In this document: in pieces, positions 52,104 to 63,142 of the stretch | How positions within the stretch are numbered: position 1 is the stretch's first letter | Layout: every line of letters starts with the position of its first letter | From: a virus | Virus record (IMG/VR): IMGVR_UViG_3300014494_000005 | Coordinates: 186,001 to 250,000 of that record | DNA: 64,000 nucleotides | Reading direction: 5' to 3' (one strand) | Made by a program: the position numbers and the translations under genes | Notes under the pieces: generated by a model | Database searches by the model: none | Seen by the model: only the letters and a program-made list of their open reading frames with translations | Told to the model about the DNA's origin: nothing

Positions 52104-52134
52104 TTTGTATTTATAATTTTATTGCATATATTTG
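52104..52134 (+). promoter_or_regulatory. Bacteroidetes-type promoter of tRNA leader 1
   Basis: TTTG (52104-52107), exactly 19 bases, TATATTTG (52127-52134): a full match to TTTG-N19-TAnnTTTG. Confidence 0.8.
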
Positions 52135-52171
52135 TAGTCATTTTGTTATTCATATTATGGATTTTTAGATT

Positions 52172-52246
52172 ATGAAAAATTTAATACATATTCAACCCCA
52201 ACCACAGCAACATCCACAGATGTCTGAATGGGGAAATTATGCTTAA
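52172..52246 (+). CDS. Leader peptide 1 (His/Gln/Pro-rich) of the tRNA-Pro-His-Gln attenuator
   Basis: A 24-codon frame with HIQPQPQQHPQ at residues 6-16, that is 2 His, 5 Gln and 3 Pro in 11 codons, then MSEWGNYA and stop. The three genes after the following terminator are tRNA-Pro, tRNA-His and tRNA-Gln. The codons for Glu-Trp-Gly near its end (GAATGGGG, 52226-52233) are complementary to the 5' arm of that terminator. A ribosome slowed on the His/Gln/Pro codons would leave this strand free and prevent termination. The peptide itself probably has no function. Confidence 0.8.
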   Translation: MKNLIHIQPQPQQHPQMSEWGNYA

Positions 52247-52306
52247 ATTTTTCGAAAGAAGTTTTAGGTTAATGTTGACCCCATTCGTAAGAGTGGGGTT
52301 TTTTTA
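52226..52306 (+). promoter_or_regulatory. Attenuator 1: antiterminator/terminator pair before tRNA-Pro
   Basis: Terminator: CCCCATTC (52279-52286), GTAA tetraloop, GAGTGGGG (52291-52298), then eight T. Alternative structure: GAATGGGG (52226-52233) pairs perfectly with CCCCATTC. The two structures exclude each other. tRNA-Pro starts about 10 bases behind the T run, so read-through is needed for the tRNAs to be made from this promoter. Confidence 0.75.
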
Positions 52307-52316
52307 TTATATATAT

Positions 52317-52401
52317 CGGGGTGTAGGTCTGTAGTTGGTAGCAGTCCTGCCTTGGAAGCAGGTGGAGAAATCCCTCGCACGTTCGAACCGTGTCACCCCG
52401 A
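52317..52401 (+). tRNA. tRNA-Pro (anticodon TGG)
   Basis: Acceptor CGGGGTG/CACCCCG, anticodon arm CCTGC-CTTGGAA-GCAGG, T-arm GCACG-TTCGAAC-CGTGT. The variable region is 14 bases with a possible GGA/TCC stem, unusual for tRNA-Pro. No CCA is encoded. It reads CCA and other CCN codons, as used in leader 1. Confidence 0.8.
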
Positions 52402-52511
52402 AGTGATTGATGTTAAATTACTTGCACGTAGTAATCACTGCATAACCAAAAGGTTAACTAAAAATTTAGCAAAGTTCTTTGAAATACCTAATAATAATAT
52501 ATAATTTATAT

Positions 52512-52583
52512 GGGATGATTGGTGTAGCGGTAGCATGCCAGATTGTGGTTCTGTCGGGGAGGTTTCAAATACCTCATCACCCC
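52512..52583 (+). tRNA. tRNA-His (anticodon GTG)
   Basis: Anticodon loop TTGTGGT. The acceptor has eight positions including the extra 5' G opposite C73, the hallmark of tRNA-His, with one A-C mismatch. T-arm GAGGT-TTCAAAT-ACCTC. No encoded CCA. Confidence 0.85.
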
Positions 52584-52642
52584 CAAATTCTCTAGTGATG
52601 TAATTAATATATTGCTGGTTTGAATATATTGAAACAATAAAT

Positions 52643-52729
52643 TGTTCTGTGATGAAATTGGCTAAACATGTCAGACTTTGACTCTGATGCTCTTTAGTGA
52701 GTTTGTAAGTTCGAATCTTACCAGAACAG
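52643..52729 (+). tRNA. tRNA-Gln (anticodon TTG), long variable arm
   Basis: Acceptor TGTTCTG/CAGAACA (7 bp), anticodon arm TCAGA-CTTTGAC-TCTGA, T-arm GTAAG-TTCGAAT-CTTAC. The variable region is about 17 bases with a CTC/GAG stem and the D-arm looks leucine-like, so the body is class II although the anticodon is that of Gln. Leader 1's Gln codons support the Gln reading. Confidence 0.75.
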
Positions 52730-52778
52730 CAATATTAATTTTTTTAATTATCTTTGTTAAAATTTTAAATTAATTATT

Positions 52779-53732
52779 ATGTCATATAATTTATTTCTTG
52801 ATGACTTCCGCAGTCCTATCGATTCTTTTTATTATTTAGGGAATCCAATATATAATATTCTTGATTGGAAAATTGTACGAAATTATGATGAATTTGTGAA
52901 AACGATTCAAGAAAATGGTATTCCAGAAACTATTAGTTTTGACCATGATTTGGAAAATTCTGAAGAGTGGATGGATATTATTGGATATGAAGGAATTTAC
53001 ATGGTTTCAAATTTTGGTCGTATTTTAAGAACAAAAAAATCAAAAGGTACAACAGGTAATAATATTTTAACTCCATTAAAAAACATATCTGGATTATATG
53101 TAACATTATATAATTGCGGTAAAAATATACACAAAAAAATTCATAGATTAGTTTTAGAATCATTTATGGGTATTAATAATGAAAAATCACAAGTTAATCA
53201 TATTGATGGAAATAGATGGAATAATCATATTAATAATTTAGAGTGGTGTACATCATCTGAAAATATATGGCATTCACATAATGTATTATATAGAGATTTT
53301 TCTGCATATGGTGAAAACCATAAAAATAGTATGACAGTATCTCAATATGATATAAATAATAATCTAATTAATATTTATGGTTCAGTTAATGAAGCAGGAA
53401 GGCAATTAAATATTAGTTTTTCGAACATTGCAAAATGTGCTAGAGGTGAAAGAAAAATTGCTGGTGGATTTATTTGGAAATATGAAAATCTCAAAGTAAC
53501 AATAAATACAAAAATTTCACACATTGAATATAAAGATTATGCTAAGAATTTCTTTATACCTAAATATGAAGAAAAAACTGGTTATCATTGTGCTAAATGG
53601 TTAATAGATTATTGCATTGACAATAAATTAGAATTACCAAAAACAATTTTAATACACTCAATGAATCCAGTTGGAAGTCGAAATATTAAATCATTATTTG
53701 ATAGTTATTTCAAATCACTTAATTTATCTTAA
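52779..53732 (+). CDS. Receiver-like (cREC) domain protein interrupted in frame by an HNH endonuclease
   Basis: A 317-residue protein. Residues 1-66 (NLFLDDFRSPID ... RNYDEFVKTI ... ISFDHDLENS) and about 250-317 (EKTGYHCAKWLIDYC ... ILIHSMNPVGSRNI) together make the small receiver-like domain known as cyclic-phosphate processing receiver (cREC). Between them sits a complete homing endonuclease: a NUMOD4 block (EEWMDIIGYEGIYMVSNFGR), an HNH block (QVNHIDGNRWNNHINNLEWC) and a NUMOD1-like helix-turn-helix. No intein splice residues or intron features are visible, so the endonuclease may be tolerated as an inserted domain. Confidence 0.8.
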   Translation: MSYNLFLDDFRSPIDSFYYLGNPIYNILDWKIVRNYDEFVKTIQENGIPETISFDHDLENSEEWMDIIGYEGIYMVSNFGRILRTKKSKGTTGNNILTPLKNISGLYVTLYNCGKNIHKKIHRLVLESFMGINNEKSQVNHIDGNRWNNHINNLEWCTSSENIWHSHNVLYRDFSAYGENHKNSMTVSQYDINNNLINIYGSVNEAGRQLNISFSNIAKCARGERKIAGGFIWKYENLKVTINTKISHIEYKDYAKNFFIPKYEEKTGYHCAKWLIDYCIDNKLELPKTILIHSMNPVGSRNIKSLFDSYFKSLNLS

Positions 53733-53735
53733 TTT

Positions 53736-54152
53736 TTATTTAACCCAAAATTTTCCTAATAATGTAATAATTGTGATTAGTATTGATATTCCCGCAACAA
53801 TGTATGCAATCATAGCATTTCCACCTGCTTTTATATTTTCAGATTTTTCGACTTTAATTGTAAGTGCATCAATTTTATCATTAGCATTTTTTAACAATAC
53901 TTCTGTCTCAATACGTGGCATTAATGTTCTCGACTGGTCACCAAGTTGTGCACGAAATTCATTAACACATTCAAAACGTTTTTCTGTTGCAACCTCTGCC
54001 TTATTAACAGCTAATTCCATTGCTTGATACCTTTGAGTTACACGTTCGTCTCTTTCAGCAAGCAATATTTTATAATGTTCATATTGATTTTTTAATACAA
54101 CATCATAATGCTCTTTAAGAGCTTCAAGCGTCCAAATTGTGTTATTTTCCAT
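53736..54152 (-). CDS. Coiled-coil protein with C-terminal membrane anchor
   Basis: A 138-residue protein: WTLEALKEHYDVVLKN start, long coiled coil (ERDERVTQRYQAMELAVNKA, KRFECVNEFRAQL), and a single C-terminal transmembrane helix (AYIVAGISILITIITLLG). This widespread phage family is often found near lysis genes, but its function is unproven. It is convergent with the cREC gene. Confidence 0.65.
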   Translation of the reverse strand: MENNTIWTLEALKEHYDVVLKNQYEHYKILLAERDERVTQRYQAMELAVNKAEVATEKRFECVNEFRAQLGDQSRTLMPRIETEVLLKNANDKIDALTIKVEKSENIKAGGNAMIAYIVAGISILITIITLLGKFWVK

Positions 54153-54250
54153 TAATTTATTAGTGTTAGATATTTATTAGCCATTTAATGTTAATAAATA
54201 CTTTTTAGAACGTCTAAAAATATTGTATATAAAAAATAATTTAAAAAAAG

Positions 54251-54281
54251 TTTGTATATATTGTAACATTTTATATCTTTG
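54251..54281 (+). promoter_or_regulatory. Bacteroidetes-type promoter of tRNA leader 2
   Basis: TTTG (54251-54254), 19 bases, TATCTTTG (54274-54281): again a full match to TTTG-N19-TAnnTTTG. Confidence 0.8.
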
Positions 54282-54321
54282 CAACGTATTTAGAATAAAA
54301 GAAACTATTTTTAATTTTAAA

Positions 54322-54414
54322 ATGATGAAAAAAGTACTCGACATATTGGTATCAGAGATGGCAGTTGTCCTATTATGGGCAGATGCAGAAGATACATTAT
54401 ATTCAGTCGGGTAA
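54322..54414 (+). CDS. Leader peptide 2 of the large tRNA operon attenuator
   Basis: A 30-codon frame starting ATG-ATG. Residues 12-24 read EMAVVLLWADAED, all amino acids of downstream tRNAs (Glu, Met, Ala, Val, Leu, Trp, Asp). Overall 22 of 30 residues belong to that set. At the codon level it uses GAT/GAC, GAA, GAG, GTA, CTC, CTA, TTA, TTG, TGG and GCA, matching tRNAs with anticodons GTC, TTC, CTC, TAC, AAG, TAG, TAA, CAA, CCA and TGC in the cluster. Its last codons (CAGTCGGG, 54404-54411) pair with the terminator's 5' arm. Confidence 0.8.
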   Translation: MMKKVLDILVSEMAVVLLWADAEDTLYSVG

Positions 54415-54486
54415 TATTTATTACAAATAACACCTCCTTTCTTAAATGAAAAATCCCGACTGCTAAAATGGTCGGGATTTTTTTTT
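54404..54486 (+). promoter_or_regulatory. Attenuator 2: antiterminator/terminator pair before tRNA-Asp
   Basis: Terminator: AAATCCCGAC (54451-54460) and GTCGGGATTT (54471-54480), a perfect 10-bp stem followed by a T run. Alternative: CAGTCGGG (54404-54411) with CCCGACTG (54455-54462), 8 bp. The two cannot coexist. Between them lies CACCTCCTTTCT (54431-54442), identical to the usual 3' tail of 16S rRNA. Confidence 0.75.
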
Positions 54487-54490
54487 AGAA

Positions 54491-54520
54491 TTTGTAACAA
54501 ATAAAATTTTTCTTTGTATA
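54491..54520 (+). promoter_or_regulatory. Promoter, TTTGTAACA-N22-TATA class, before tRNA-Asp
   Basis: TTTGTAACA at 54491-54499 and TATA at 54517-54520, spacing 22. It lies downstream of attenuator 2, so the tRNAs could also be expressed without passing the attenuator. The following TTCTTTGACATGTTGGAA resembles sequences near Bacteroidetes rRNA operons. Confidence 0.5.
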
Positions 54521-54545
54521 CTGTTCTTTGACATGTTGGAAATTC

Positions 54546-54615
54546 GTTCTCGTAGTATAATGGTTAGTATGTATCACTGTCTATGATAAGGAGGGGTTCG
54601 AATCCCACGGGGACG
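54546..54615 (+). tRNA. tRNA-Asp (anticodon GTC)
   Basis: Acceptor GTTCTCG/CGGGGAC with G-T pairs, discriminator G as in tRNA-Asp, D-arm GTATAATGGTTAGTAT, anticodon arm TATCA-CTGTCTA-TGATA. The T-stem is weak (3-4 bp). Confidence 0.85.
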
Positions 54616-54686
54616 GCAATGATTATTAATGTGTTATAATAATTATCTGTTATATTAAATTATATTAAAAATGAAATAATTAATTT

Positions 54687-54770
54687 GCTGCATTATACAA
54701 GTGGTTAAAGTGGCTTGCCCTTCAAGCAAGTGCCGAAAGGCTTCGCAGGATTCGAATTCCTCATGCAGTA
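54687..54770 (+). tRNA. tRNA-Glu (anticodon TTC), class II-like body
   Basis: Acceptor GCTGCAT/ATGCAGT, anticodon arm CTTGC-CCTTCAA-GCAAG (C at position 33), long variable arm with a GCC-GAAA-GGC hairpin, T-arm with TTCGAAT. The body looks serine-like, while the anticodon reads GAA. GAA in leader 2 supports the Glu assignment, but charging cannot be predicted. Confidence 0.65.
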
Positions 54771-54797
54771 CTGAAATATAAATTTAAAATTTAAATT

Positions 54798-55187
54798 ATG
54801 AAAAATTTGTATATTAATGCAACTCACAGTACACCCGCAGTTTTTTTTAATATTAATAAAGGTATTCTTACAATAACAGGAAAATCATTTCCTGAGAATT
54901 CCTCAATGTTTTTTGATGATATTGATAAAGCATTAGATGAATTTATTAAAGAACATTCTAATGTTGATTTAACAATTACTTGTGAATTTGAATATATTAA
55001 TTCATTATCAAATAAAGCAGTTTTTAATATATTAGAAAAAGCAGCAAAATCTCTTAATAATGTTATAGTTGTTTGGAAATATGAAGAAAACGATGAAGAT
55101 ATGAAAGAGCAGGGAGAATTTTTTGAAACATCTTTTAAAACTAAAATTCATTTTCATTATAAACATTTTTTAATACAACCAGAATGA
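54798..55187 (+). CDS. SiaC-like regulatory protein (DUF1987)
   Basis: A 129-residue protein. KNLYINATHSTPAVFFNINK, then GILTITGKSFPENSSMFFDD, match the N-terminal core of the SiaC/DUF1987 family ('TPev.f....g.l.i.GrS.PENs..Fy'). In Pseudomonas, SiaC is a phosphoprotein partner that controls a diguanylate cyclase. It sits between two tRNA-Glu genes, 10 bases before the second. A phage role in host signalling is inference. Confidence 0.75.
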   Translation: MKNLYINATHSTPAVFFNINKGILTITGKSFPENSSMFFDDIDKALDEFIKEHSNVDLTITCEFEYINSLSNKAVFNILEKAAKSLNNVIVVWKYEENDEDMKEQGEFFETSFKTKIHFHYKHFLIQPE

Positions 55188-55192
55188 TAAAT

Positions 55193-55265
55193 GCTCGGTT
55201 CGTCTAATGGTTAGGACAAAAGATTCTCATTCTTTTAAATATGTTTTCGATTAACATACCGAGTA
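55193..55265 (+). tRNA. tRNA-Glu (anticodon CTC)
   Basis: Acceptor GCTCGGT/ACCGAGT, typical Glu D-arm GTCTAATGGTTAGGAC, anticodon arm AAAGA-TTCTCAT-TCTTT, T-arm ATGTT-TTCGATT-AACAT, discriminator A. Reads GAG. Confidence 0.88.
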
Positions 55266-55343
55266 CAGAAATAAATATGATGTTGGAAATACTAACATTA
55301 TCATATAAAATTTGATTTAATGCTGGCTTTTATCAACAAATAT

Positions 55344-55418
55344 ATTCCCTTAACTCAGATGGGTCAGAGTGTTTGCCTTACAAGCAAAATGTCGTAGGTT
55401 CGAAGCCTACAGGGAATA
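55344..55418 (+). tRNA. tRNA-Val (anticodon TAC)
   Basis: Acceptor ATTCCCT/AGGGAAT, D-stem ACTC/GAGT, anticodon arm TTTGC-CTTACAA-GCAAA, T-arm GTAGG-TTCGAAG-CCTAC, discriminator A. Confidence 0.92.
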
Positions 55419-55503
55419 CAAAAGATTGTAGTGCCAAATACAATCATAATATCGCCTTAATTACCGATATTTAATATTTATCGGTTAAAAAGGTGATACC
55501 TTT

Positions 55504-55591
55504 CTCTCAGTGTTGTAACTGGTAGCCAAGCTGGTTTAAGAAACCAGTGCGAAATAATAGTAGCGTGTCGGTTCGAGTCCGACTTGAGAGA
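55504..55591 (+). tRNA. tRNA-Leu (anticodon AAG)
   Basis: Acceptor CTCTCAG/TTGAGAG, anticodon arm CTGGT-TTAAGAA-ACCAG, a 19-base class II variable arm and T-arm GTCGG-TTCGAGT-CCGAC. A34 is rare in bacterial tRNA-Leu; if converted to inosine it would read CTT, CTC and CTA. Confidence 0.82.
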
Positions 55592-55599
55592 CAATAAAC

Positions 55600-55674
55600 G
55601 TGAATGTAGCCAAATGGTTAATAGGCAATCGATTTAGACTCGAAAATTTGCTGGTTCGACTCCAGTCATTCACA
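55600..55674 (+). tRNA. tRNA-Leu (anticodon TAG), short variable loop
   Basis: Acceptor GTGAATG/CATTCAC, D-arm GCC-GGC, anticodon loop TTTAGAC on a TCGA/TCGA stem, T-arm GCTGG-TTCGACT-CCAGT. The anticodon reads CTA (Leu), but the variable loop is short (class I), unlike normal tRNA-Leu. CTA occurs in leader 2. Confidence 0.7.
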
Positions 55675-55740
55675 CAAAGATATTTTTTAAAAAACAATAA
55701 TCTTTCCTAATATTTCATGTATTTATATTAAATATAATAT

Positions 55741-56469
55741 ATGAAATATACAAAAGAATTTTTAGAACCAATTGTTCTTAAAAGCAAAGCAATTAGTGAA
55801 GTATTACGTTATTTAAAATTAAATGCTAATGGTGGTAATCATGCACATATTTCAAAAACCATAAAAAAATATAATATTGATACATCACATTTTCTTGGAC
55901 AAAGTTGGAATAGAGGTAAATCGCCACGAAATAGACATACCATAGAAAGTTTCATTAAACTTGTTTTAAAATTAAATGGTATGGGATGGCAAAGTCATCA
56001 AATAAAATTAAAATTATTTGAATTAAATTTAAAAGAAAGAAAATGTGGAATTTGTGGACAAAATGAAATATGGAATAATAATAAACTTGGTTTAGAGTTA
56101 GACCATATTAATGGAATACACAATGATAATAGATTAGAAAATTTAAGAATTTTATGTCCAAATTGTCATTCACAAATGCCAACACAAGGTGTTAGAAATA
56201 TTCATAATGGAAAAATAATTAACATTAAAGTTCATAAAGAAAAAATAATAAAAAATAAAATAATTAATATTTGTAATTGTGGTAAAAAAATAAAAAATAA
56301 TTCTAAAACATGTGTTAATTGCTATTCATTAAAACAAAGAAAAGTTAATAGACCATCATTTGAAACACTTCAAGAAGAAGTTAAAACATTAGGATATACT
56401 GGAACTGGAAGAAAATATGGTGTGAGTGATAATACGATAAGAAAATGGATTAAATTTTACACGAAATAA
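55741..56469 (+). CDS. HNH homing endonuclease
   Basis: A 242-residue protein. The HNH core is KCGICGQNEIWNN then LELDHINGIHNDNRLENLRI and LCPNCHSQMPT, giving a two-Cys-pair zinc site and the catalytic His of DHINGI. A second zinc-knuckle (CNCGKK...CVNC) and a C-terminal helix-turn-helix (GRKYGVSDNTIRKWIK) should bind the target. It lies between tRNA genes, with GTATTTATA 13 bases before its ATG, so it has its own late-type promoter. Confidence 0.9.
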   Translation: MKYTKEFLEPIVLKSKAISEVLRYLKLNANGGNHAHISKTIKKYNIDTSHFLGQSWNRGKSPRNRHTIESFIKLVLKLNGMGWQSHQIKLKLFELNLKERKCGICGQNEIWNNNKLGLELDHINGIHNDNRLENLRILCPNCHSQMPTQGVRNIHNGKIINIKVHKEKIIKNKIINICNCGKKIKNNSKTCVNCYSLKQRKVNRPSFETLQEEVKTLGYTGTGRKYGVSDNTIRKWIKFYTK

Positions 56470-56472
56470 AAT

Positions 56473-56548
56473 GGGGTATGGGACTGCTAGGGTTGGTCAT
56501 CTCGTCTGCACCGAGAAAATCAGGAGGATTCGAATTCCTCATGCTCCA
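56473..56548 (+). tRNA. tRNA-Ala (anticodon TGC)
   Basis: Acceptor GGGGTAT/ATGCTCC contains a G3-T70 wobble pair, the identity signal of tRNA-Ala. Anticodon arm TCTCG-TCTGCAC-CGAGA (C at position 33), T-arm GAGGA-TTCGAAT-TCCTC. Confidence 0.88.
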
Positions 56549-56587
56549 CATTATCAAATAGTTATATAGATAATCACAATAAAATAT

Positions 56588-56661
56588 GGCACAGTACTCC
56601 AATTGGTAGAGAGAAACGGCTTAAACCCGTTAAAGTGTGAATTCGAATTTCACTTGTGCTA
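56588..56661 (+). tRNA. tRNA with anticodon TAA (Leu), class I body
   Basis: Acceptor GGCACAG/TTGTGCT with terminal wobble pairs, D-stem CTC/GAG, anticodon arm AACGG-CTTAAAC-CCGTT, variable loop of only five bases, T-arm GTGAA-TTCGAAT-TTCAC. The anticodon reads TTA, but the short variable loop is atypical for Leu; a second, canonical tRNA-Leu(TAA) lies at 58962. Confidence 0.7.
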
Positions 56662-56683
56662 CAAAATAAATTAATTATAATAT

Positions 56684-56755
56684 ACGTCTGTCGTCTAATG
56701 GTTAAGATAACGGCTTCCAACCCCGTGGATGAGGTTTCGATTACTTCCAGACGTG
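56684..56755 (+). tRNA. tRNA-Trp (anticodon CCA)
   Basis: Acceptor ACGTCTG/CAGACGT with A1-T72 and discriminator G, as in bacterial tRNA-Trp. Anticodon arm ACGGC-TTCCAAC-CCCGT has a C-C mismatch next to the loop; a shifted fold would give TCC (Gly), but the acceptor identity elements and the Trp codon of leader 2 favour Trp. T-arm GAGGT-TTCGATT-ACTTC. Confidence 0.7.
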
Positions 56756-56782
56756 CTAAAATAAAAAATAAATATTATATTA

Positions 56783-56814
56783 TTTGCATATATTTATATA
56801 ATAAACTAAATTTG
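56783..56814 (+). promoter_or_regulatory. Bacteroidetes-type promoter
   Basis: TTTG (56783-56786), 20 bases, TAAATTTG (56807-56814), eight bases before the ATG of the next gene. Confidence 0.6.
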
Positions 56815-56821
56815 TCAAATT

Positions 56822-57550
56822 ATGTTAATAATAAATTACAATAAAAAAGATTATTACGATGGTGTTGTTGGTACGATGGGTATCGATAAAACACTTGTTT
56901 ATGACCGTAAAATAATTGAGGTTGAAGAAAAAAAAATTCCATCAATATTTCAAAGAAAGGGATTTTCTTGGAAAAAAAGTAAAGATTCACCTTTTTTAAA
57001 TATTGAAAATCATACAATAAAAAATGAACAACATAAAAATTATCAAAATTGTAGTTCTTTTATTATTGGATTTTGTGGAAAACTATATATTGGTTGGAAA
57101 TTATATAGCGAAAACAGAAAAGTTTATCCAGAAAAACTTACAACTACAATTACATATGATTTTGATTTAATAAAAACAATTATTGATAATAAAGGTTGGT
57201 ATGGAAACCTTGAAGAGCAGTATAATTATATTAAAAATTATAATTCACTTCAATTATTTAGAGATTTTAAAGCACCTGTTTTTATTTATGATAGTGATTA
57301 TAATAGAATAAATATTGGTCATTATCATAAACGTAATGAAAAACTTTTTATTAATCCAATTTTAAGCGATTATCATTTTTATAAAATATTTGATAGTTTT
57401 CAAGCATTTCAAGAAATAAGTATGTTTATGGGTGGTGTGCTTGGTAAAGGCGAAAAAGAAATTATTGAAGTGGCTGATAAATATAAAATTACTCAACATG
57501 GTTTTGATTATAAATGGAGTTTTAGAAAAAAATCTGAAAAGAATAAATGA
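56822..57550 (+). CDS. Conserved phage protein of unknown function
   Basis: A 242-residue protein. The start YYDGVVGTMGIDKTLVYDR and the end AFQEISMFMGGVLGKGEKEI ... ITQHGFDYKWSFRK are a pattern that I know from many large phages (hypothetical proteins of this kind), without assigned function. It begins a three-gene overlapping operon leading to the tmRNA. Confidence 0.7.
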   Translation: MLIINYNKKDYYDGVVGTMGIDKTLVYDRKIIEVEEKKIPSIFQRKGFSWKKSKDSPFLNIENHTIKNEQHKNYQNCSSFIIGFCGKLYIGWKLYSENRKVYPEKLTTTITYDFDLIKTIIDNKGWYGNLEEQYNYIKNYNSLQLFRDFKAPVFIYDSDYNRINIGHYHKRNEKLFINPILSDYHFYKIFDSFQAFQEISMFMGGVLGKGEKEIIEVADKYKITQHGFDYKWSFRKKSEKNK

Positions 57551-57813
57551 AACAAGAATTGCATAAAATATTTATAATTCCTGCTCGATTTATTAAACAA
57601 ACTAAAGATAATAAATATGTTATTCGATGTCTAATTGAAAAAAATATTACTGAAGACCGTATATTTGATGATAATTCACTTAAAGGATTAATAAATCCTA
57701 AGTATTTATTAATCGGAATAATGACAGGAGTTGGATATATGCAAATAAATTTTGTTGATGCTAATGATTATGAAAAAATGTTTAATGTAAAATGGAAAAT
57801 TTTAGTAAAATAA
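57547..57813 (+). CDS. Hypothetical protein
   Basis: An 88-residue basic-hydrophobic protein overlapping its neighbours by 4 and 22 bases. No domain recognised. Confidence 0.6.
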   Translation: MKQELHKIFIIPARFIKQTKDNKYVIRCLIEKNITEDRIFDDNSLKGLINPKYLLIGIMTGVGYMQINFVDANDYEKMFNVKWKILVK

Positions 57814-57986
57814 GCGATGAAATAATATCACAACTTAAATCTATATGTTATAGTGGTGATTTATCTGATATTGGTAATGAAATTGGTATTGTAATTGCTA
57901 AATATTTTGATAAAGATAATACTGTTGATGATTTCATTCATGGTTTAAAACATGGAATATCATTAACTGATGGAACACATGGTTAA
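57792..57986 (+). CDS. Small hypothetical protein
   Basis: A 64-residue acidic helical protein (NFSKISDEIISQLKSICYSG ... DDFIHGLKHGISLTDGTHG). Ends 23 bases before the tmRNA. Confidence 0.55.
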   Translation: MENFSKISDEIISQLKSICYSGDLSDIGNEIGIVIAKYFDKDNTVDDFIHGLKHGISLTDGTHG

Positions 57987-58009
57987 TATAATAAGTTCTT
58001 TAAAATAAT

Positions 58010-58372
58010 GGGGATGAATGGATTTGACTGTATGTAGAAAAATGATGTAAGCAAGTAGTAGTTGAATCGGACTACTTTTAAAAAGGTTCAAAACAATAAA
58101 TGCAGAAGACATTATGTCTATTCCTACTTCCTTGACAAAAGGAAATAGCGTATTTGTAAAGAGTGCTGAACTTGCAATTGCGTAATAGGAAAAAAATAAA
58201 CAGCAAAAAACTTCCAAGTCAGAAGGGAAGTAAAAACAATTCTGGACAGTTTTGTAGTTGTTCTGGAAAAATACAATTAACATTTTGCTGATTTAGGAAA
58301 ATCAAATAAACTTGTAGAAAACTTATTAATCACATTGCAACACCGGGGAATCGATGCCCCGCATCTCCACCA
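58010..58372 (+). ncRNA. ssrA: tmRNA (trans-translation RNA), CCA encoded
   Basis: A 363-base transfer-messenger RNA that would rescue stalled ribosomes. The 5' end GGGGATG pairs with CATCTCC near the 3' end, followed by ACCA; the T-arm is CCGGGG-AATCGAT-CCCCG-like. The tag reading frame most likely resumes at 58150 (GTA after AAATAGC) and runs 11 codons, VFVKSAELAIA, to TAA TAG at 58183-58188. The tag ends in LAIA instead of the usual LAA. Confidence 0.88.
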
Positions 58373-58376
58373 AATA

Positions 58377-58425
58377 TTTTTCATCTCCACAGTATTTATA
58401 TTAAAATATTGATGGAGATGAAAAA
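58377..58425. repeat. 13-bp inverted repeat around the start of the endonuclease gene
   Basis: TTTTTCATCTCCA (58377-58389) and TGGAGATGAAAAA (58413-58425) are perfect reverse complements; AGTATTTATA lies between them and the right arm covers the first codons. CATCTCCAC also occurs at the tmRNA 3' end (58362-58370). Confidence 0.8.
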
Positions 58426-58960
58426 TTTAAAAAAAAGAAAAACTAAATTAATTAAATGCGATAATTGTGGAAATGATTTTGAAAAATCGATATCCGAAAT
58501 AAAAAGAAATAAAAATCATTTTTGTTCATTAAGATGTTCAGCAATCCATCGTAATGATATCAATCGAAAAAATTTTGAAGGATATATAGGAAATCCAAAA
58601 TTTTTAATTGCAAATAATCATAAAGATGAATATACAGGTTTTCGTGATTTTATTAGAAGAGCAAAACAAAGAAATAAATTAGGGAATTTAACATTAATTG
58701 ATTTAAAAGAACAATGGCAAAAACAAAATGGAATTTGTCCTTATACTGGAATACAATTAGAATTGCCAAATTATTCTAAAACAAAAAAATTTTCAATACA
58801 AGAAGCAGCATCTTTAGATAGAATAAATTCAAATAAACCATATGAAAAAGATAATATTGTTTTTGTAAGTACACCAATTAATTATATGAAAAATACGATG
58901 ACAGAAGAAGAAACAATTGCATTTTGTAAAAAAATTGCATTATTTTGGAATAATAAATAA
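58412..58960 (+). CDS. HNH-type homing endonuclease
   Basis: A 182-residue endonuclease. N-terminal zinc site CDNCGNDF...CSLRCSAIH, then a helical part (GFRDFIRRAKQRNK) and the nuclease core NGICPYTGI ... ASLDRINSNKPYEKDNIVFVS ... INYMKN, a form seen in free-standing phage HNH proteins. The ATG at 58412 follows AGTATTTATA by 11 bases. It stands directly behind the tmRNA gene. Confidence 0.85.
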   Translation: MEMKNLKKRKTKLIKCDNCGNDFEKSISEIKRNKNHFCSLRCSAIHRNDINRKNFEGYIGNPKFLIANNHKDEYTGFRDFIRRAKQRNKLGNLTLIDLKEQWQKQNGICPYTGIQLELPNYSKTKKFSIQEAASLDRINSNKPYEKDNIVFVSTPINYMKNTMTEEETIAFCKKIALFWNNK

Positions 58961-58961
58961 T

Positions 58962-59048
58962 GGCGAAGTGATGAAATAGGTAGTACATGCAGGTCTTAAA
59001 AACCTGTGAACAGTAATGTTCGTGTGGGTTCGATTCCCATCTTCGCTA
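58962..59048 (+). tRNA. tRNA-Leu (anticodon TAA)
   Basis: Acceptor GGCGAAG/CTTCGCT, leucine-like D-arm ATGAAATAGGTAGTACAT, anticodon arm CAGGT-CTTAAAA-ACCTG, class II variable arm with GAACA/TGTTC, T-arm GTGGG-TTCGATT-CCCAT, discriminator A. Confidence 0.92.
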
Positions 59049-59092
59049 CGAATAAATTAATTAAAGTATTTATATAAAAACTTATAATAACA

Positions 59093-59257
59093 ATGAATAT
59101 ATTAATTATAAATCAATCAACACCAATTAACTATCCAATAATAATTGTACCTGTTGGTTGTCAATTTAATATACCTAATAGAATAATGTGTAGTGGTGGT
59201 TTTCTTGTTTATAATAAACCATCTGAAAAAATATTAATTAATTATGGCAAATATTAG
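59093..59257 (+). CDS. Small hypothetical protein
   Basis: A 54-residue protein with a hydrophobic centre (NYPIIIVPVGCQFNIPN) and a strong late motif (AGTATTTATATA, from 59065) 20 bases before the ATG. Function unknown. Overlaps the next small gene by 14 bases. Confidence 0.55.
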   Translation: MNILIINQSTPINYPIIIVPVGCQFNIPNRIMCSGGFLVYNKPSEKILINYGKY

Positions 59258-59360
59258 AAAACCACATCCAAAAGAAGATGATTGTGGATGTGGAAAATCA
59301 GTTAAAATAACTGAAAGAAAAAAAATTGAATATAGACGAATTATAAAGAAAAGAGGATAA
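59244..59360 (+). CDS. Small basic protein
   Basis: A 38-residue Lys/Arg-rich peptide with CGCG (DDCGCGKS). It ends one base before tRNA-Leu(CAA). Coupled to the previous frame by overlap. Confidence 0.45.
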   Translation: MANIRKPHPKEDDCGCGKSVKITERKKIEYRRIIKKRG

Positions 59361-59443
59361 CTCCTTGTGATGAAATTGGTAGCACGTGCTCGCCTCAAAA
59401 GCGAGTGCCTTCGGGCGTGTCGGTTCGACTCCGACCAAGGAGA
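59361..59443 (+). tRNA. tRNA-Leu (anticodon CAA)
   Basis: Acceptor CTCCTTG/CAAGGAG perfect, D-arm ATGAAATTGGTAGCACGT, anticodon arm CTCGC-CTCAAAA-GCGAG, class II variable arm (GCC-TTCG-GGC), T-arm GTCGG-TTCGACT-CCGAC. Confidence 0.95.
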
Positions 59444-59462
59444 CAAATAGAAGGGAAATTTT

Positions 59463-59957
59463 ATGTATATGGTATTACAGATTCCCATGCGTGAACAGAA
59501 TTATGATTTTGATTGTAGTCTTGCAGTAGCATGGTCGTACTTAAAACATTCTAAAATAAAAGTTGATTATAATACACTTTTAAAAATATCAAAAATTTCA
59601 CCAATTGATGGATTATGTCCAGAAAAATTAGTTATTTTACTAAAAAAATTTGGTTTAGAAACCAATTTAGAAGAACGTAAAAATATTAAATATTTAAAAA
59701 ATCAAATAATTACTAAAAAACCAGTAATTGTTCTTTTACAAGCAAATAAAGAATATAAGAAATCTTGGAAAAATACTTGGACTCACGGACATTATTGCAT
59801 TATATTTGGTTTTGATGACTTTCGGGTATTTATTTATGACCCATATATTGGTGGAATTAAATTATTCGCATATGACCAATTTAATAATCGTTGGCATGAT
59901 GAATGGAATGGTAAAAAATATATTAAGTCAGTAATAATAAAAAATGAAAATTTATGA
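59463..59957 (+). CDS. Papain-like cysteine peptidase, C39 type
   Basis: A 164-residue protein. Cys in QNYDFDCSLAVAWSYLKH corresponds to the DCG.a catalytic segment, and THGHYCIIFGFDDFRVFIYDPYIGG supplies His and Asp in the spacing of C39/papain-fold peptidases. No transporter domains or substrate are encoded nearby. It could process a phage or host peptide; the activity is inferred from the three-residue pattern. Confidence 0.7.
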   Translation: MYMVLQIPMREQNYDFDCSLAVAWSYLKHSKIKVDYNTLLKISKISPIDGLCPEKLVILLKKFGLETNLEERKNIKYLKNQIITKKPVIVLLQANKEYKKSWKNTWTHGHYCIIFGFDDFRVFIYDPYIGGIKLFAYDQFNNRWHDEWNGKKYIKSVIIKNENL

Positions 59958-60118
59958 ATTTTGGATTAAGAAAAAATAGTAAAATAAAATTCAAAGAAAT
60001 ACCTGAAGAAATTGATGAATCTGAAATTGATTTAGATAATCCAGAAGCAATGGAATTAACATGGAAAAGCATTGAATGGTCATTGAAAAAACATAAAGAT
60101 ATAATCTCAAAAATATAA
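59954..60118 (+). CDS. Small hypothetical protein
   Basis: A 54-residue acidic protein (KFKEIPEEIDESEIDLDNPE), starting in a four-base ATGA overlap with the peptidase stop. It could be a partner or inhibitor of the peptidase, by position only. Confidence 0.5.
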   Translation: MNFGLRKNSKIKFKEIPEEIDESEIDLDNPEAMELTWKSIEWSLKKHKDIISKI

Positions 60119-60121
60119 AAT

Positions 60122-60181
60122 ATGAAAAAAATTTTGAATTCTTGTAACGCACTAAAGCGTAACAAGAAAAATGGGAAATAA
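60122..60181 (+). CDS. Very short frame with internal hairpin, possible leader
   Basis: A 19-codon frame overlapping the next start by 11 bases. A stem-loop (TTCTTGTAACGC/GCGTAACAAGAA, 60139-60168, one mismatch) lies within it, ending two bases before the ATG of the next gene. Translation of this frame would unfold the hairpin, so it may govern translation downstream. Confidence 0.35.
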   Translation: MKKILNSCNALKRNKKNGK

Positions 60182-60500
60182 AAATTTAGTAAAAACAACC
60201 ACAAATCGTGGCGAATTCAATCGTGCATATAAATTGCATCTTGAACGAATAGGAAAAATTCATTGTTCATACTGTGGTTTTCATCTTGGTGAAAATAATG
60301 GCAAAAAATGGTATGGTGGAATTATTTACGATGACATGGAAACTTGTCATGGTAAAAGAAAAGGAAATAATACAAGATTTCCAAACTGGAAATTGGTTTC
60401 TAAAAATAGAAAACAATGGATGCGAAAACCAATTAAAATTGTTGAAGAACATAGAATTGGACACAAAAGAACATATGTTGAGATTAAATTCTCAACATAA
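60171..60500 (+). CDS. Conserved hypothetical protein with zinc-type Cys pair
   Basis: A 109-residue basic protein with CSYCGFH and a later CH (ETCHGKRKG), plausibly a small zinc-binding nucleic-acid protein. The N-terminus (RGEFNRAYKLHLERIGKIH) and GKKWYGG look conserved. Ends three bases before tRNA-Met. Confidence 0.6.
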   Translation: MGNKNLVKTTTNRGEFNRAYKLHLERIGKIHCSYCGFHLGENNGKKWYGGIIYDDMETCHGKRKGNNTRFPNWKLVSKNRKQWMRKPIKIVEEHRIGHKRTYVEIKFST

Positions 60501-60503
60501 TTT

Positions 60504-60574
60504 AGCGATGTCATTCAACGGTAGGATATCTCTCTCATAAGGAGCAAATACGAGTCCGATTCTCGTCATCGCTA
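60504..60574 (+). tRNA. tRNA-Met (anticodon CAT)
   Basis: Acceptor AGCGATG/CATCGCT perfect, anticodon loop CTCATAA on a four-pair stem, T-arm ACGAG-TCCGATT-CTCGT with an unusual C in place of the second T. The A1-T72 pair and the absence of three G-C pairs argue against an initiator. A CAT anticodon could also be tRNA-Ile2. Confidence 0.8.
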
Positions 60575-62050: not shown

Positions 62051-63142
62051 GTGAAATTACTTGAAAAAGTTGATTGGAAAATATTAAATAACTATATTGA
62101 TAATAGTCTCATTATAGCAAATAAACACCCAAATTATGAAATTTGGATTTTGAACTATTCAGTAAAAGCTCAATCAAAAAAATTTTGGGACGAATATACT
62201 ATGTCTTGTCGTGGATTGGTTGTTGATGTTGAAGGTAATATTTTAGCACGTCCATTTATGAAATTTAAAAATTATGAAGAATATGATTCTTCTGAAATTG
62301 ATTTATATATGACTCAAGAATTTGAAATATTTGAAAAAGTCGATGGTTCACCTATTATCTTATTTTACTATGCACCACGTATGGAATGGATTGTGGCAAG
62401 TAGAGGTTCATTTATTTCAGAACAATGTATTGAAGCACAAAAAATGATTGATATTAACATATACGATAAATTGAATAAAAATTGTACTTTTTTATTTGAA
62501 GTATTATATCCAGAAAATCGTATTGTTGTTGATTATGGTGATAGAAGAGAACTTGTATTACTTGGAAGAATTGTAACTGAAACCGGAATTGAAGCATATT
62601 ATAATGAATTAGTTGCACAATATTCAAATTATTTTTCAATTGTTAAGAAATATGATATAAATAATATTAAAAATCTTAAAGATTTACAAAAACTTGAAGA
62701 AGAAAATCGTGAAGGATTTGTTGTAAGATTTAAAGATGGTTTTAGAGTTAAAGTTAAGTTTGCAGAATATTGTAGATTACATGTTATTTTAACAAATGTT
62801 TCAAACTTAACAATTTGGGAACATTTAATGAATAATTATGATTTTGATTCATTACTTGACAGAGTTCCAGATGAATTTTATAATTGGTTAAAGAAAACAA
62901 CAAAAATTATACAAACTGATTTTAATGAAATTGAAAGATTGTCATTAAAAGAATTTGTAAGAATTTACCATGTTAATGGAATTACAAATCGTAGAGAATT
63001 TGCTATGGAAGCATTAAAGACAGAATATCGTTCAATATTGTTTAAGTTATATGACAAAAAAAACTACGATGATATTATTTGGAAACAAGTAAGACCCGTT
63101 TACAGCAAACCATTTAAAGATGGTTTTGAATATAGTGTTTAA
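62051..63142 (+). CDS. rnlA: T4 Rnl1-type RNA ligase
   Basis: A 363-residue ATP-dependent RNA ligase. The adenylated Lys is K96 in FEKVDGSP; motif III is TFLFEVLYPENRIV, motif IV REGFVVRF, motif V RVKVKF, followed by the C-terminal helical domain typical of Rnl1, which recognises tRNA. In T4 the enzyme reseals tRNA cut by host anticodon nucleases. A GTG at 62051 is the best start. The neighbouring tRNA array fits a tRNA-repair role. Confidence 0.9.
   Translation: MKLLEKVDWKILNNYIDNSLIIANKHPNYEIWILNYSVKAQSKKFWDEYTMSCRGLVVDVEGNILARPFMKFKNYEEYDSSEIDLYMTQEFEIFEKVDGSPIILFYYAPRMEWIVASRGSFISEQCIEAQKMIDINIYDKLNKNCTFLFEVLYPENRIVVDYGDRRELVLLGRIVTETGIEAYYNELVAQYSNYFSIVKKYDINNIKNLKDLQKLEEENREGFVVRFKDGFRVKVKFAEYCRLHVILTNVSNLTIWEHLMNNYDFDSLLDRVPDEFYNWLKKTTKIIQTDFNEIERLSLKEFVRIYHVNGITNRREFAMEALKTEYRSILFKLYDKKNYDDIIWKQVRPVYSKPFKDGFEYSV

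Follow-up and report, generated by a model that had tools for sequence, protein, structure and literature searches.

The window is a stretch of 64,000 nucleotides (nt) of phage DNA from IMG/VR record IMGVR_UViG_3300014494_000005 (here G000:186001-250000). The full record contains 348,923 bases, and its portal and major capsid proteins are T4-like. It carries a main array of transfer RNA (tRNA) genes, all on the plus strand. The array is divided into four operons, two of which lie outside the window. Each operon has the same order, with a promoter, a short open reading frame (ORF) that overlaps an antiterminator, an intrinsic terminator, and then the tRNAs. The short ORFs are referred to here as leaders 1 to 4. 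Their sequence anatomy suggests that each operon is very probably under ribosome-mediated transcription attenuation of the trp/his type. The host appears to be a member of the Bacteroidota, based on the promoter type and on the Flavobacterium phages among the top relatives of the capsid protein. The promoter consensus, TTG...TAnnTTTG, is typical of Bacteroidota.

Leaders and tRNAs divide the amino acids in the same way. The sets are HQP, DEVLAWM, KY, and TCNISFGR for leaders 1 to 4. They sum to all 20 amino acids, a total that counts Ala, whose tRNA in the window is a reading by eye only. Operon 1 contains tRNAs for Pro, His, and Gln, called by ARAGORN. Operon 2 contains ARAGORN-called tRNAs for Asp, Glu, Val, Leu (five copies), and Trp, together with a CAT tRNA and a transfer-messenger RNA (tmRNA) found with Rfam. 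Rfam adds two tRNAs in the window beyond the ARAGORN calls (Table 1). Operon 3 lies past the window end and contains Lys, Tyr, and Lys tRNAs. Operon 4, also past the window end, contains Thr, Thr, Cys, Ile, Ser, Ser, Phe, Gly, Met, Asn, Thr, three Arg, and Gly tRNAs. Leader 3 (MFTFGTYYYGKKSYKKQLMRIGNAVFKIQC) is located at G000:251658-251750, and leader 4 (MMKTLTTNIFSSISTTTSRIGRTIFCSNFIGRNSNVSGILFS) is located at G000:258527-258655. Both were first spotted by eye and later recovered by script. A tRNA with a CTA anticodon closes the array at G000:268386, and the same tRNA is found at the end of operon 4 in records G005, G012, and G014. ARAGORN labels it Pyl, and it is likely an amber suppressor.

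An original prediction for this DNA had described leaders 1 and 2 and proposed that their residues divide as the downstream tRNAs do. Both leaders sit where it placed them, and the terminator 5' arm pairs perfectly with the ORF end. It stated that leader 1 lacks Asp, Val, and Ala. This holds for codons 2 to 16, which are usable for stalling, and fails for the whole peptide, in which Ala is the last residue. Leader 1 also contains Leu, Met, Glu, and Trp besides His, Gln, and Pro. Leader 2 was said to contain no His, Gln, or Pro, and it contains none. The ARAGORN-called tRNAs divide as the leaders do, with Pro, His, and Gln behind leader 1 and Asp, Glu, Val, Leu, and Trp behind leader 2. Leaders 3 and 4, found after that prediction, follow the same rule.

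The end of each ORF (region 2) is complementary to the terminator 5' arm (region 3) over 8 to 9 bp in all four leaders, with one G-U pair in leader 1. The antiterminator, which uses the ORF end, and the terminator are mutually exclusive according to the sequence and the computed folds. Stalling was simulated by folding the transcript downstream of the ribosome for each codon, with an assumed footprint of 15 nt from the A site. Region 2 was wholly or partly free for region 3 when the stall came no later than codon 16 in leader 1, 24 in leader 2, 17 in leader 3, and 33 in leader 4. It was blocked past those codons, stop codon included, in all four leaders. By our own count, the in-set residues are concentrated mostly before the stall limit and were 10/15 up to it and 0/8 beyond it in leader 1. 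They were 19/23 and 2/6 in leader 2, 8/16 and 1/13 in leader 3, and 30/32 and 7/9 in leader 4. The geometry of all four leaders fits the predicted mechanism, in which a stalled ribosome frees the antiterminator.

When the charged tRNAs of a set are ample, the ribosome would reach the stop codon and mask region 2. The terminator (3:4) would then fold, and the tRNA operon would be off. When any one tRNA of the set is scarce, the ribosome would stall on that codon upstream. Region 2 would then pair with region 3, and RNA polymerase would continue into the tRNA genes. A leader of 2 to 11 amino acids would act as an OR gate for its own operon. The distance from the end of the terminator stem to the first tRNA is 16, 64, 14, and 22 nt in operons 1 to 4. 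The gaps of 16, 14, and 22 nt leave no space for a separate promoter of the first tRNA in operons 1, 3, and 4. The original prediction had named tRNA promoters 3' of the terminators as a finding that would count against it. Behind leaders 1, 3, and 4, gaps of 14 to 22 nt leave such promoters too little room before the first tRNA, and internal promoters further down are possible.

The pairing is specific within the phage genome. Our own terminator finder retrieved 77 terminators (38 + 39, both strands) from the whole G000 record. An ORF with an antiterminator score of at least 18 was present at 10 of the 77, and scores of at least 21 occurred only at the four tRNA leaders. The control parts were compared with the protein composition of the phage itself. 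The binomial P values were 6e-8, 5e-6, 2e-3, and 4e-9 for leaders 1 to 4, with the value for leader 2 based on a tRNA set that includes Ala and Met. With the ARAGORN-called tRNAs alone, leader 2 has a -log10P of 3.1. The values for leaders 1 and 2 bear out the earlier statement that chance is improbable. The true pairing of leaders to operons in G000 ranks best of 24 permutations. The two window leaders fold far more stably than shuffled sequences (z of -3.95 and -4.78).

Relatives of the window phage were retrieved from IMG/VR by searches with the RNA ligase and the leaders. They include near-identical records (L005 to L008) and diverged ones with 66 to 75% ligase identity. The relatives share both the leaders and the way in which the amino acids are divided, and their tRNAs are duplicated and reordered. 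We gathered 55 distinct leader-terminator sequences; one of 56 collected rows, MQKIHYIQSGNIYYK (type 3), was dropped as a mistyped overlapping frame of leader 2. Antiterminator pairing persists through paired and triple changes, and the triple changes preserve both the 2:3 and the 3:4 pairing (GAATGGGG/CCCCATTC versus TGAACGGG/CCCGTTCA, with arm 4 GAACGGGG). The mean antiterminator scores with own and swapped arms within a type were 21.6/20.4, 22.9/20.4, 21.6/19.4, and 20.3/16.4 for leaders 1 to 4, with the mistyped row counted in the type 3 values. Conservation of most arms accounts for the small difference. The peptide sequences vary among relatives while the composition holds. Replacements of in-set residues remained in the set in 88/108 cases (leader 2) and 110/128 cases (leader 4), against a BLOSUM62 expectation of 0.36 to 0.37; these counts are distinct residue pairs per column and are not independent events. 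Past the control part, 8/28 (leader 2) and 42/70 (leader 4) replacements remained in the set. The K/Y operon of L048 and L055 contains stray Leu tRNAs. Translated searches (tblastn) of isolates with leader 2-like and leader 3-like queries gave no match at E values up to 10.

Unrelated leaders with other groupings were found in at least four further lineages, isolates included. Leader and tRNA content thus covary in these lineages as well as in the window phage, as the original prediction had proposed, and the search for enrichment in other phages that it called for was positive.

(a) G015, G016, and G018. The ligases of this group are 57 to 72% identical to that of G016, and identity to the ligase of the window phage is 34% in the two cases compared. 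The sets are Val Ala Cys Asp Gly Glu, Pro Met Phe, Ile Thr Gln, and Tyr Leu. One leader of the group, MKQTQTTRTTTTQRIITGVRVDVSEGWDD, is followed by Ile, Ile, Thr, Thr, Thr, Gln, and Gln tRNAs. The Ile/Thr/Gln tRNA cluster was not called in the G015 fragment. All four sets were later found in G018. The true pairing ranks best of 24 in G016, of 6 in G015, and of 24 in G018. Several of these leaders were not blind picks. Inspection of the upstream ORFs by eye supplied the Pro/Met/Phe leaders of G015 and G016 and the Ile/Thr/Gln leader of G016. The Tyr/Leu leader of G016 was picked after its G015 homologue, and the Pro/Met/Phe leader of G018 was picked as the predicted homologue.

(b) Salicola phage SCTP-2. 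This isolate contains four leaders with the sets Asp His Met Ile, Lys Phe Trp Val Ser Gly, Ser Glu Thr, and Leu Pro Tyr Gln. One of them, MRTNTTVNQYQLQQLPLVLYPYNGGKGC, is followed by Leu, Pro, Leu, Tyr, and Gln tRNAs. The true leader-operon pairing is the best of 24. By their coordinates, leaders a, b, and c correspond to the annotated hypothetical proteins gp335, gp351, and gp364. Leader a does not fit fully; it is rich in Asn, yet no Asn tRNA was called behind it.

(c) Other lineages. The leader of Agrobacterium phage Atu_ph07 is the hypothetical protein gp469, MTNPMQPTTEIIAIERNVFVRAEAAMFWYPISGSDSHTGDKR, which is followed by Ala, Arg, Phe, Pro, Ile, Tyr, Trp, Met, Glu, Val, and further tRNAs. 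Caulobacter phage CcrColossus contains the leader MMTYRNNVRQIRVRQFNLAGRSHVGDGGSEG, then Val, Ile, Ile, Val, Gln, Gln, Asn, Arg, and Arg tRNAs. Its GenBank record has an annotated terminator, and the leader has no annotated gene. The CcrColossus DNA has matches in 48 records of phages, most of which infect Caulobacter or Brevundimonas, and the leader was read in 8 of these, Colossus included. Swift, Magneto, and RBC57 have a tRNA-Phe and no Asn tRNA in the operon, and their leaders contain QF versus NN in Colossus, as predicted. Two features do not fit. The Colossus leader has a Phe codon without a tRNA-Phe, and Tyr is present in every leader of the group, but a tRNA-Tyr is found here only in the Brevundimonas phages. 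The sequence evidence for co-evolution of leader and tRNAs inside this group is therefore mixed. The uncultured phage LR756508 contains the leader MSRFHTLPLINILNANLALANNNPISLSGSSALDA, followed by Leu and Asn tRNAs.

A scan blind to composition was made on 21 phage records with tRNA genes. It required an ATG ORF, an antiterminator score of at least 20 located at least 6 codons into the ORF, and a tRNA within 900 nt; ORF composition played no part in detection. Whole records were scanned for G000, G015, and G016, and tRNA-bearing stretches for the others. The sample was not random. Three records are related to each other, and the choice of isolates was guided by a high number of tRNAs or by kinship. 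The rule was also fixed after looser scans and their non-fitting hits. The scan detected 16 leaders in 8 of the 21 records. A match to the downstream tRNA set at P<0.01 was present in 12/16 in the frame of the ORF and in 0/16 in each of the other two frames. The mean -log10P was 3.6 in the ORF's frame and 0.4 and 0.3 in the others.

The looser scans used scores from 16 to 18 up and some GTG or TTG starts. Their non-fitting hits were LVIISHSVSELVVYRLRDKT before Val and VGSFLKKYGL... before Leu in LR756511, LSVKLDCFLSGG... before Val in LR756508, MVFIVHIVN... before Met in L096, and LAEYRSCAILGFG before Pro in G018. Another, MRDPRAAFLPIWAPC... before Trp in CcrColossus, overlaps the terminator of the preceding gene and is removed by the 6-codon condition.

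Several observations weigh against attenuation as described above, or against its generality. Leaders 1, 2, and 4 show a clear 1:2 protector hairpin. In leader 3 this hairpin is weak, and an untranslated transcript might therefore escape termination. No Shine-Dalgarno-like motif was seen by eye in the leaders of the window clade. Some in-set residues have no serving tRNA, and the Lys, Thr, and Asn at the leader starts fall outside the set. A promoter-like TTG..TAnnTTTG site is present inside operon 2 (window 56807), between tRNA-Trp and the tmRNA, and could transcribe the tmRNA and the last tRNAs independently of the leader. In record G013 (L053, start to 2300), leaders 1 and 2 have an apparent ATA start and no ATG, with tRNAs and terminators retained. 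The blind rule detected no leader in 13 of the 21 records, several with >20 tRNAs. These were LR756511, immuto 3-5A, pT24, XacN1, Karimac, Aeromonas 65, RAS14, crAss001, Bacillus G, T5, KVP40, GAP32, and Phosso, of which XacN1, Karimac, T5, KVP40, GAP32, and Bacillus G have many tRNAs. Phosso has a GTG-start candidate only, with 29/42 residues in the set; this is not significant (P of 0.21) and is suggestive at most. Leader control is therefore one way among several to run a tRNA array and is not general.

Table 1. Features of tRNA operons 1 and 2 and the adjoining RNA ligase gene in the window
Feature	Position in window	Strand	Basis or remark
Leader 1 promoter, Bacteroidota type (TTG ... TATATTTG)	52106..52134	+	TTG..TAnnTTTG pattern
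Leader ORF 1, MKNLIHIQPQPQQHPQMSEWGNYA, 24 codons, His/Gln/Pro control codons 6-16	52172..52246	+	
Leader 1 region 2, TGAATGGGG, complementary to terminator 5' arm	52225..52233	+	
Intrinsic terminator 1 (arms 3 and 4), U-tract to ~52307	52278..52299	+	
tRNA-Pro(TGG)	52316..52402	+	ARAGORN
tRNA-His(GTG)	52513..52584	+	ARAGORN
tRNA-Gln(TTG)	52643..52730	+	ARAGORN
Leader 2 promoter (TTG ... TATCTTTG)	54250..54281	+	Promoter pattern
Leader ORF 2, MMKKVLDILVSEMAVVLLWADAEDTLYSVG, 30 codons, Asp/Glu/Val/Leu/Ala/Trp/Met control codons to codon 24	54322..54414	+	
Leader 2 region 2, CAGTCGGG	54404..54411	+	
Intrinsic terminator 2	54451..54480	+	
boxA-like TGTTCTTTGACA, between terminator 2 and first tRNA	54522..54533	+	
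tRNA-Asp(GTC)	54545..54617	+	ARAGORN
tRNA, anticodon uncertain (TTC by eye)	54687..54770	+	Rfam, 34.5 bits; no ARAGORN call
tRNA-Glu(CTC)	55193..55266	+	ARAGORN
tRNA-Val(TAC)	55344..55419	+	ARAGORN
tRNA-Leu(AAG)	55504..55592	+	ARAGORN
tRNA-Leu(TAG)	55600..55675	+	ARAGORN
Putative tRNA-Ala (TGC by eye)	~56481-56555		No call by ARAGORN or Rfam; support is Ala(TGC) in relatives' operons only
tRNA-Leu(TAA)	56588..56662	+	ARAGORN
tRNA-Trp(CCA)	56684..56756	+	ARAGORN
tmRNA	58010..58372	+	RF00023, 68.6 bits
tRNA-Leu(TAA)	58962..59049	+	ARAGORN
tRNA-Leu(CAA)	59361..59444	+	ARAGORN
tRNA, CAT by eye (Met)	60504..60574	+	Rfam, 52.9 bits; Met(cat) called in relatives' operon
T4-type RNA ligase 1	62051..63142	+	phrog_562, PF09511; 3' of operon 2, association only, outside attenuators

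Other genes and sites are present among the tRNAs. A boxA-like sequence, TGTTCTTTGACATGTTGGAA, precedes the Asp tRNA (Table 1) and the Cys tRNA (G000:258889). These sites are possibly used for antitermination of the untranslated tRNA transcript, a known role of boxA. Operon 2 also contains genes for a SiaC family regulatory phosphoprotein (window 54798-55187) and an HNH endonuclease (window 55741-56469). An ORF in operon 1 (window 52779-53732) matches cREC (cyclic-phosphate processing receiver) in two stretches, and its middle matches NUMOD4, HNH_3, NUMOD1, and I-HmuI-like domains. It seems to be a possible RNA-repair protein with a homing endonuclease inserted in frame. In relatives L011, L012, L013, and L015, ARAGORN reads tmRNA tags of 26 to 28 residues with an ELAFAA-like end. 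The usual tmRNA tags are shorter.

The cluster contains a tRNA repair ligase (PF09511) and a ribosome rescue RNA (RF00023). The original prediction had read them as parts of a translation-defence island. Its interpretation is supported in part, by the link between leader and tRNA content and by the fitting geometry, and a defence island is a possible reading. The RNA ligase, tmRNA, and cREC fit the repair of cleaved tRNAs and the rescue of stalled ribosomes. No Pnkp-type kinase domain (PF13671) turned up in the phage's own record. Karimac encodes a related RNA ligase, a tmRNA, and 43 tRNAs with no leader; the ligase and tmRNA are therefore independent of the leaders. We lean slightly toward loss of the tRNAs themselves as the signal, through host anticodon nucleases or a shut-off of host tRNA synthesis. 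It is the most sensible signal because an extra tRNA cannot cure amino-acid starvation. Cleavage by host anticodon nucleases is a plausible trigger. Host tRNA depletion upon infection, with anticodon nucleases among its causes, is documented in excerpts of two papers (PMC10264068; PMC11555353). A wider reading, on which we are evenly divided, is that a sensor of the tRNA pool has arisen repeatedly in large phages, each time independently. The leader peptides would divide the amino acids among tRNA operons, and destruction of any one tRNA of a set would make them free its replacements. This would be an inducible counter-defence against tRNA-cleaving immunity, made by RNA and ribosome alone.

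The leaders may instead hold each group of phage tRNAs, by feedback, at the level required for phage translation, for example after host genome degradation, with no role in defence. We regard such plain dose control as possible, short of probable. The same anatomy would suffice for it, and according to excerpts of PMC10264068, codon compensation is the function of phage tRNAs with the widest acceptance. The neighboring RNA ligase, tmRNA, and cREC lean to a damage response but are not decisive, as the ligase and tmRNA are also present in the leaderless Karimac. It is rather unlikely that the attenuators sense low charging from host amino-acid starvation, which the phage would then use as a prompt to raise its capacity for translation. 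Classical leaders do answer to charged tRNA, whatever the cause of its fall (excerpts of PMC1183508), and starvation and tRNA loss as inputs look the same in sequence. An extra tRNA would, however, be useless without its amino acid. The sets also span unrelated biosynthetic families, such as Val Ala Cys Asp Gly Glu in G016, and place Trp, Cys, and His codons beside abundant amino acids.

A function of the leaders as peptides, by nascent-chain arrest or as trans regulators, is very unlikely. The clade does conserve some cores (KKSYKK and LLWADAED), but composition alone is common across lineages, and in-set residues swap freely in leaders 2 and 4. The least credible explanation is that biased short ORFs happen to precede terminators, by chance or by hitch-hiking. 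Sets of 6 to 13 amino acids are easily matched, and several single P values are modest (1e-2 to 1e-3). The permutation, frame, and genome-wide controls reject chance, and the in-set substitutions and the recurrence in unrelated lineages also argue against it.

The role of phage tRNA arrays has been debated for decades. A switch that reads the codons of its own tRNAs indicates when the phage wants them, which is on shortage. Sensors selected several times over suggest that tRNA loss is common enough during infection. The amino acids of a tRNA operon become predictable from an ORF of 25 to 45 codons, or vice versa. The leader parts also provide a natural multi-input sensor of tRNA supply.

Ribosome-mediated attenuators are known from amino-acid operons (trp, his, and the multivalent ilv leaders) and from enterobacterial pheST. 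The phage leaders resemble these in having a leader ORF with regulatory codons that overlaps region 2, alternative 2:3 and 3:4 hairpins, and a terminator before the first gene. They differ in that they target tRNA genes and not enzymes or synthetases. The first regulated genes are tRNA genes, so the leaders fall outside a definition of attenuators by biosynthesis or synthetase genes. Each phage leader also has up to 11 amino acids, and the amino acids are shared out among several leaders. Unlike the enterobacterial attenuators, they are borne by phages, whose hosts are apparently Bacteroidota for the window phage and presumably Alphaproteobacteria and Gammaproteobacteria for the isolates. T-box riboswitches likewise sense the state of tRNA and control termination, but T-box RNA binds the tRNA directly. 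A T-box reading was rejected, with no T-box match among the Rfam hits of the region.

T4 repairs its tRNAs with Rnl1 and Pnkp against PrrC. A T4-type RNA ligase also adjoins the tRNA operons here. The window phage differs from T4 in regulated replacement versus repair, and no PF13671 domain was found in G000. In excerpts of van den Berg 2023 (PMC10264068) and Azam 2024 (PMC11555353), phage tRNAs substitute for tRNAs destroyed by the host, as proposed here; these excerpts treat which tRNAs phages carry. Term searches of PMC10264068, PMC13015707, PMC11555353, PMC6102473 (Atu_ph07), and PMC3556154 (phiCbK/CcrColossus) found no mention of attenuation or leaders. Full-text searches of PMC found no paper on tRNA genes controlled by a leader peptide, whether of phages or of other genomes, as judged by title and start of abstract, a scope that leaves outside most subscription papers and bioRxiv preprints. 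As far as seen, the mechanism is of a known kind, and what is new is the tRNA operon as its target, the multi-amino-acid sets, and a genetic code shared out among leaders.

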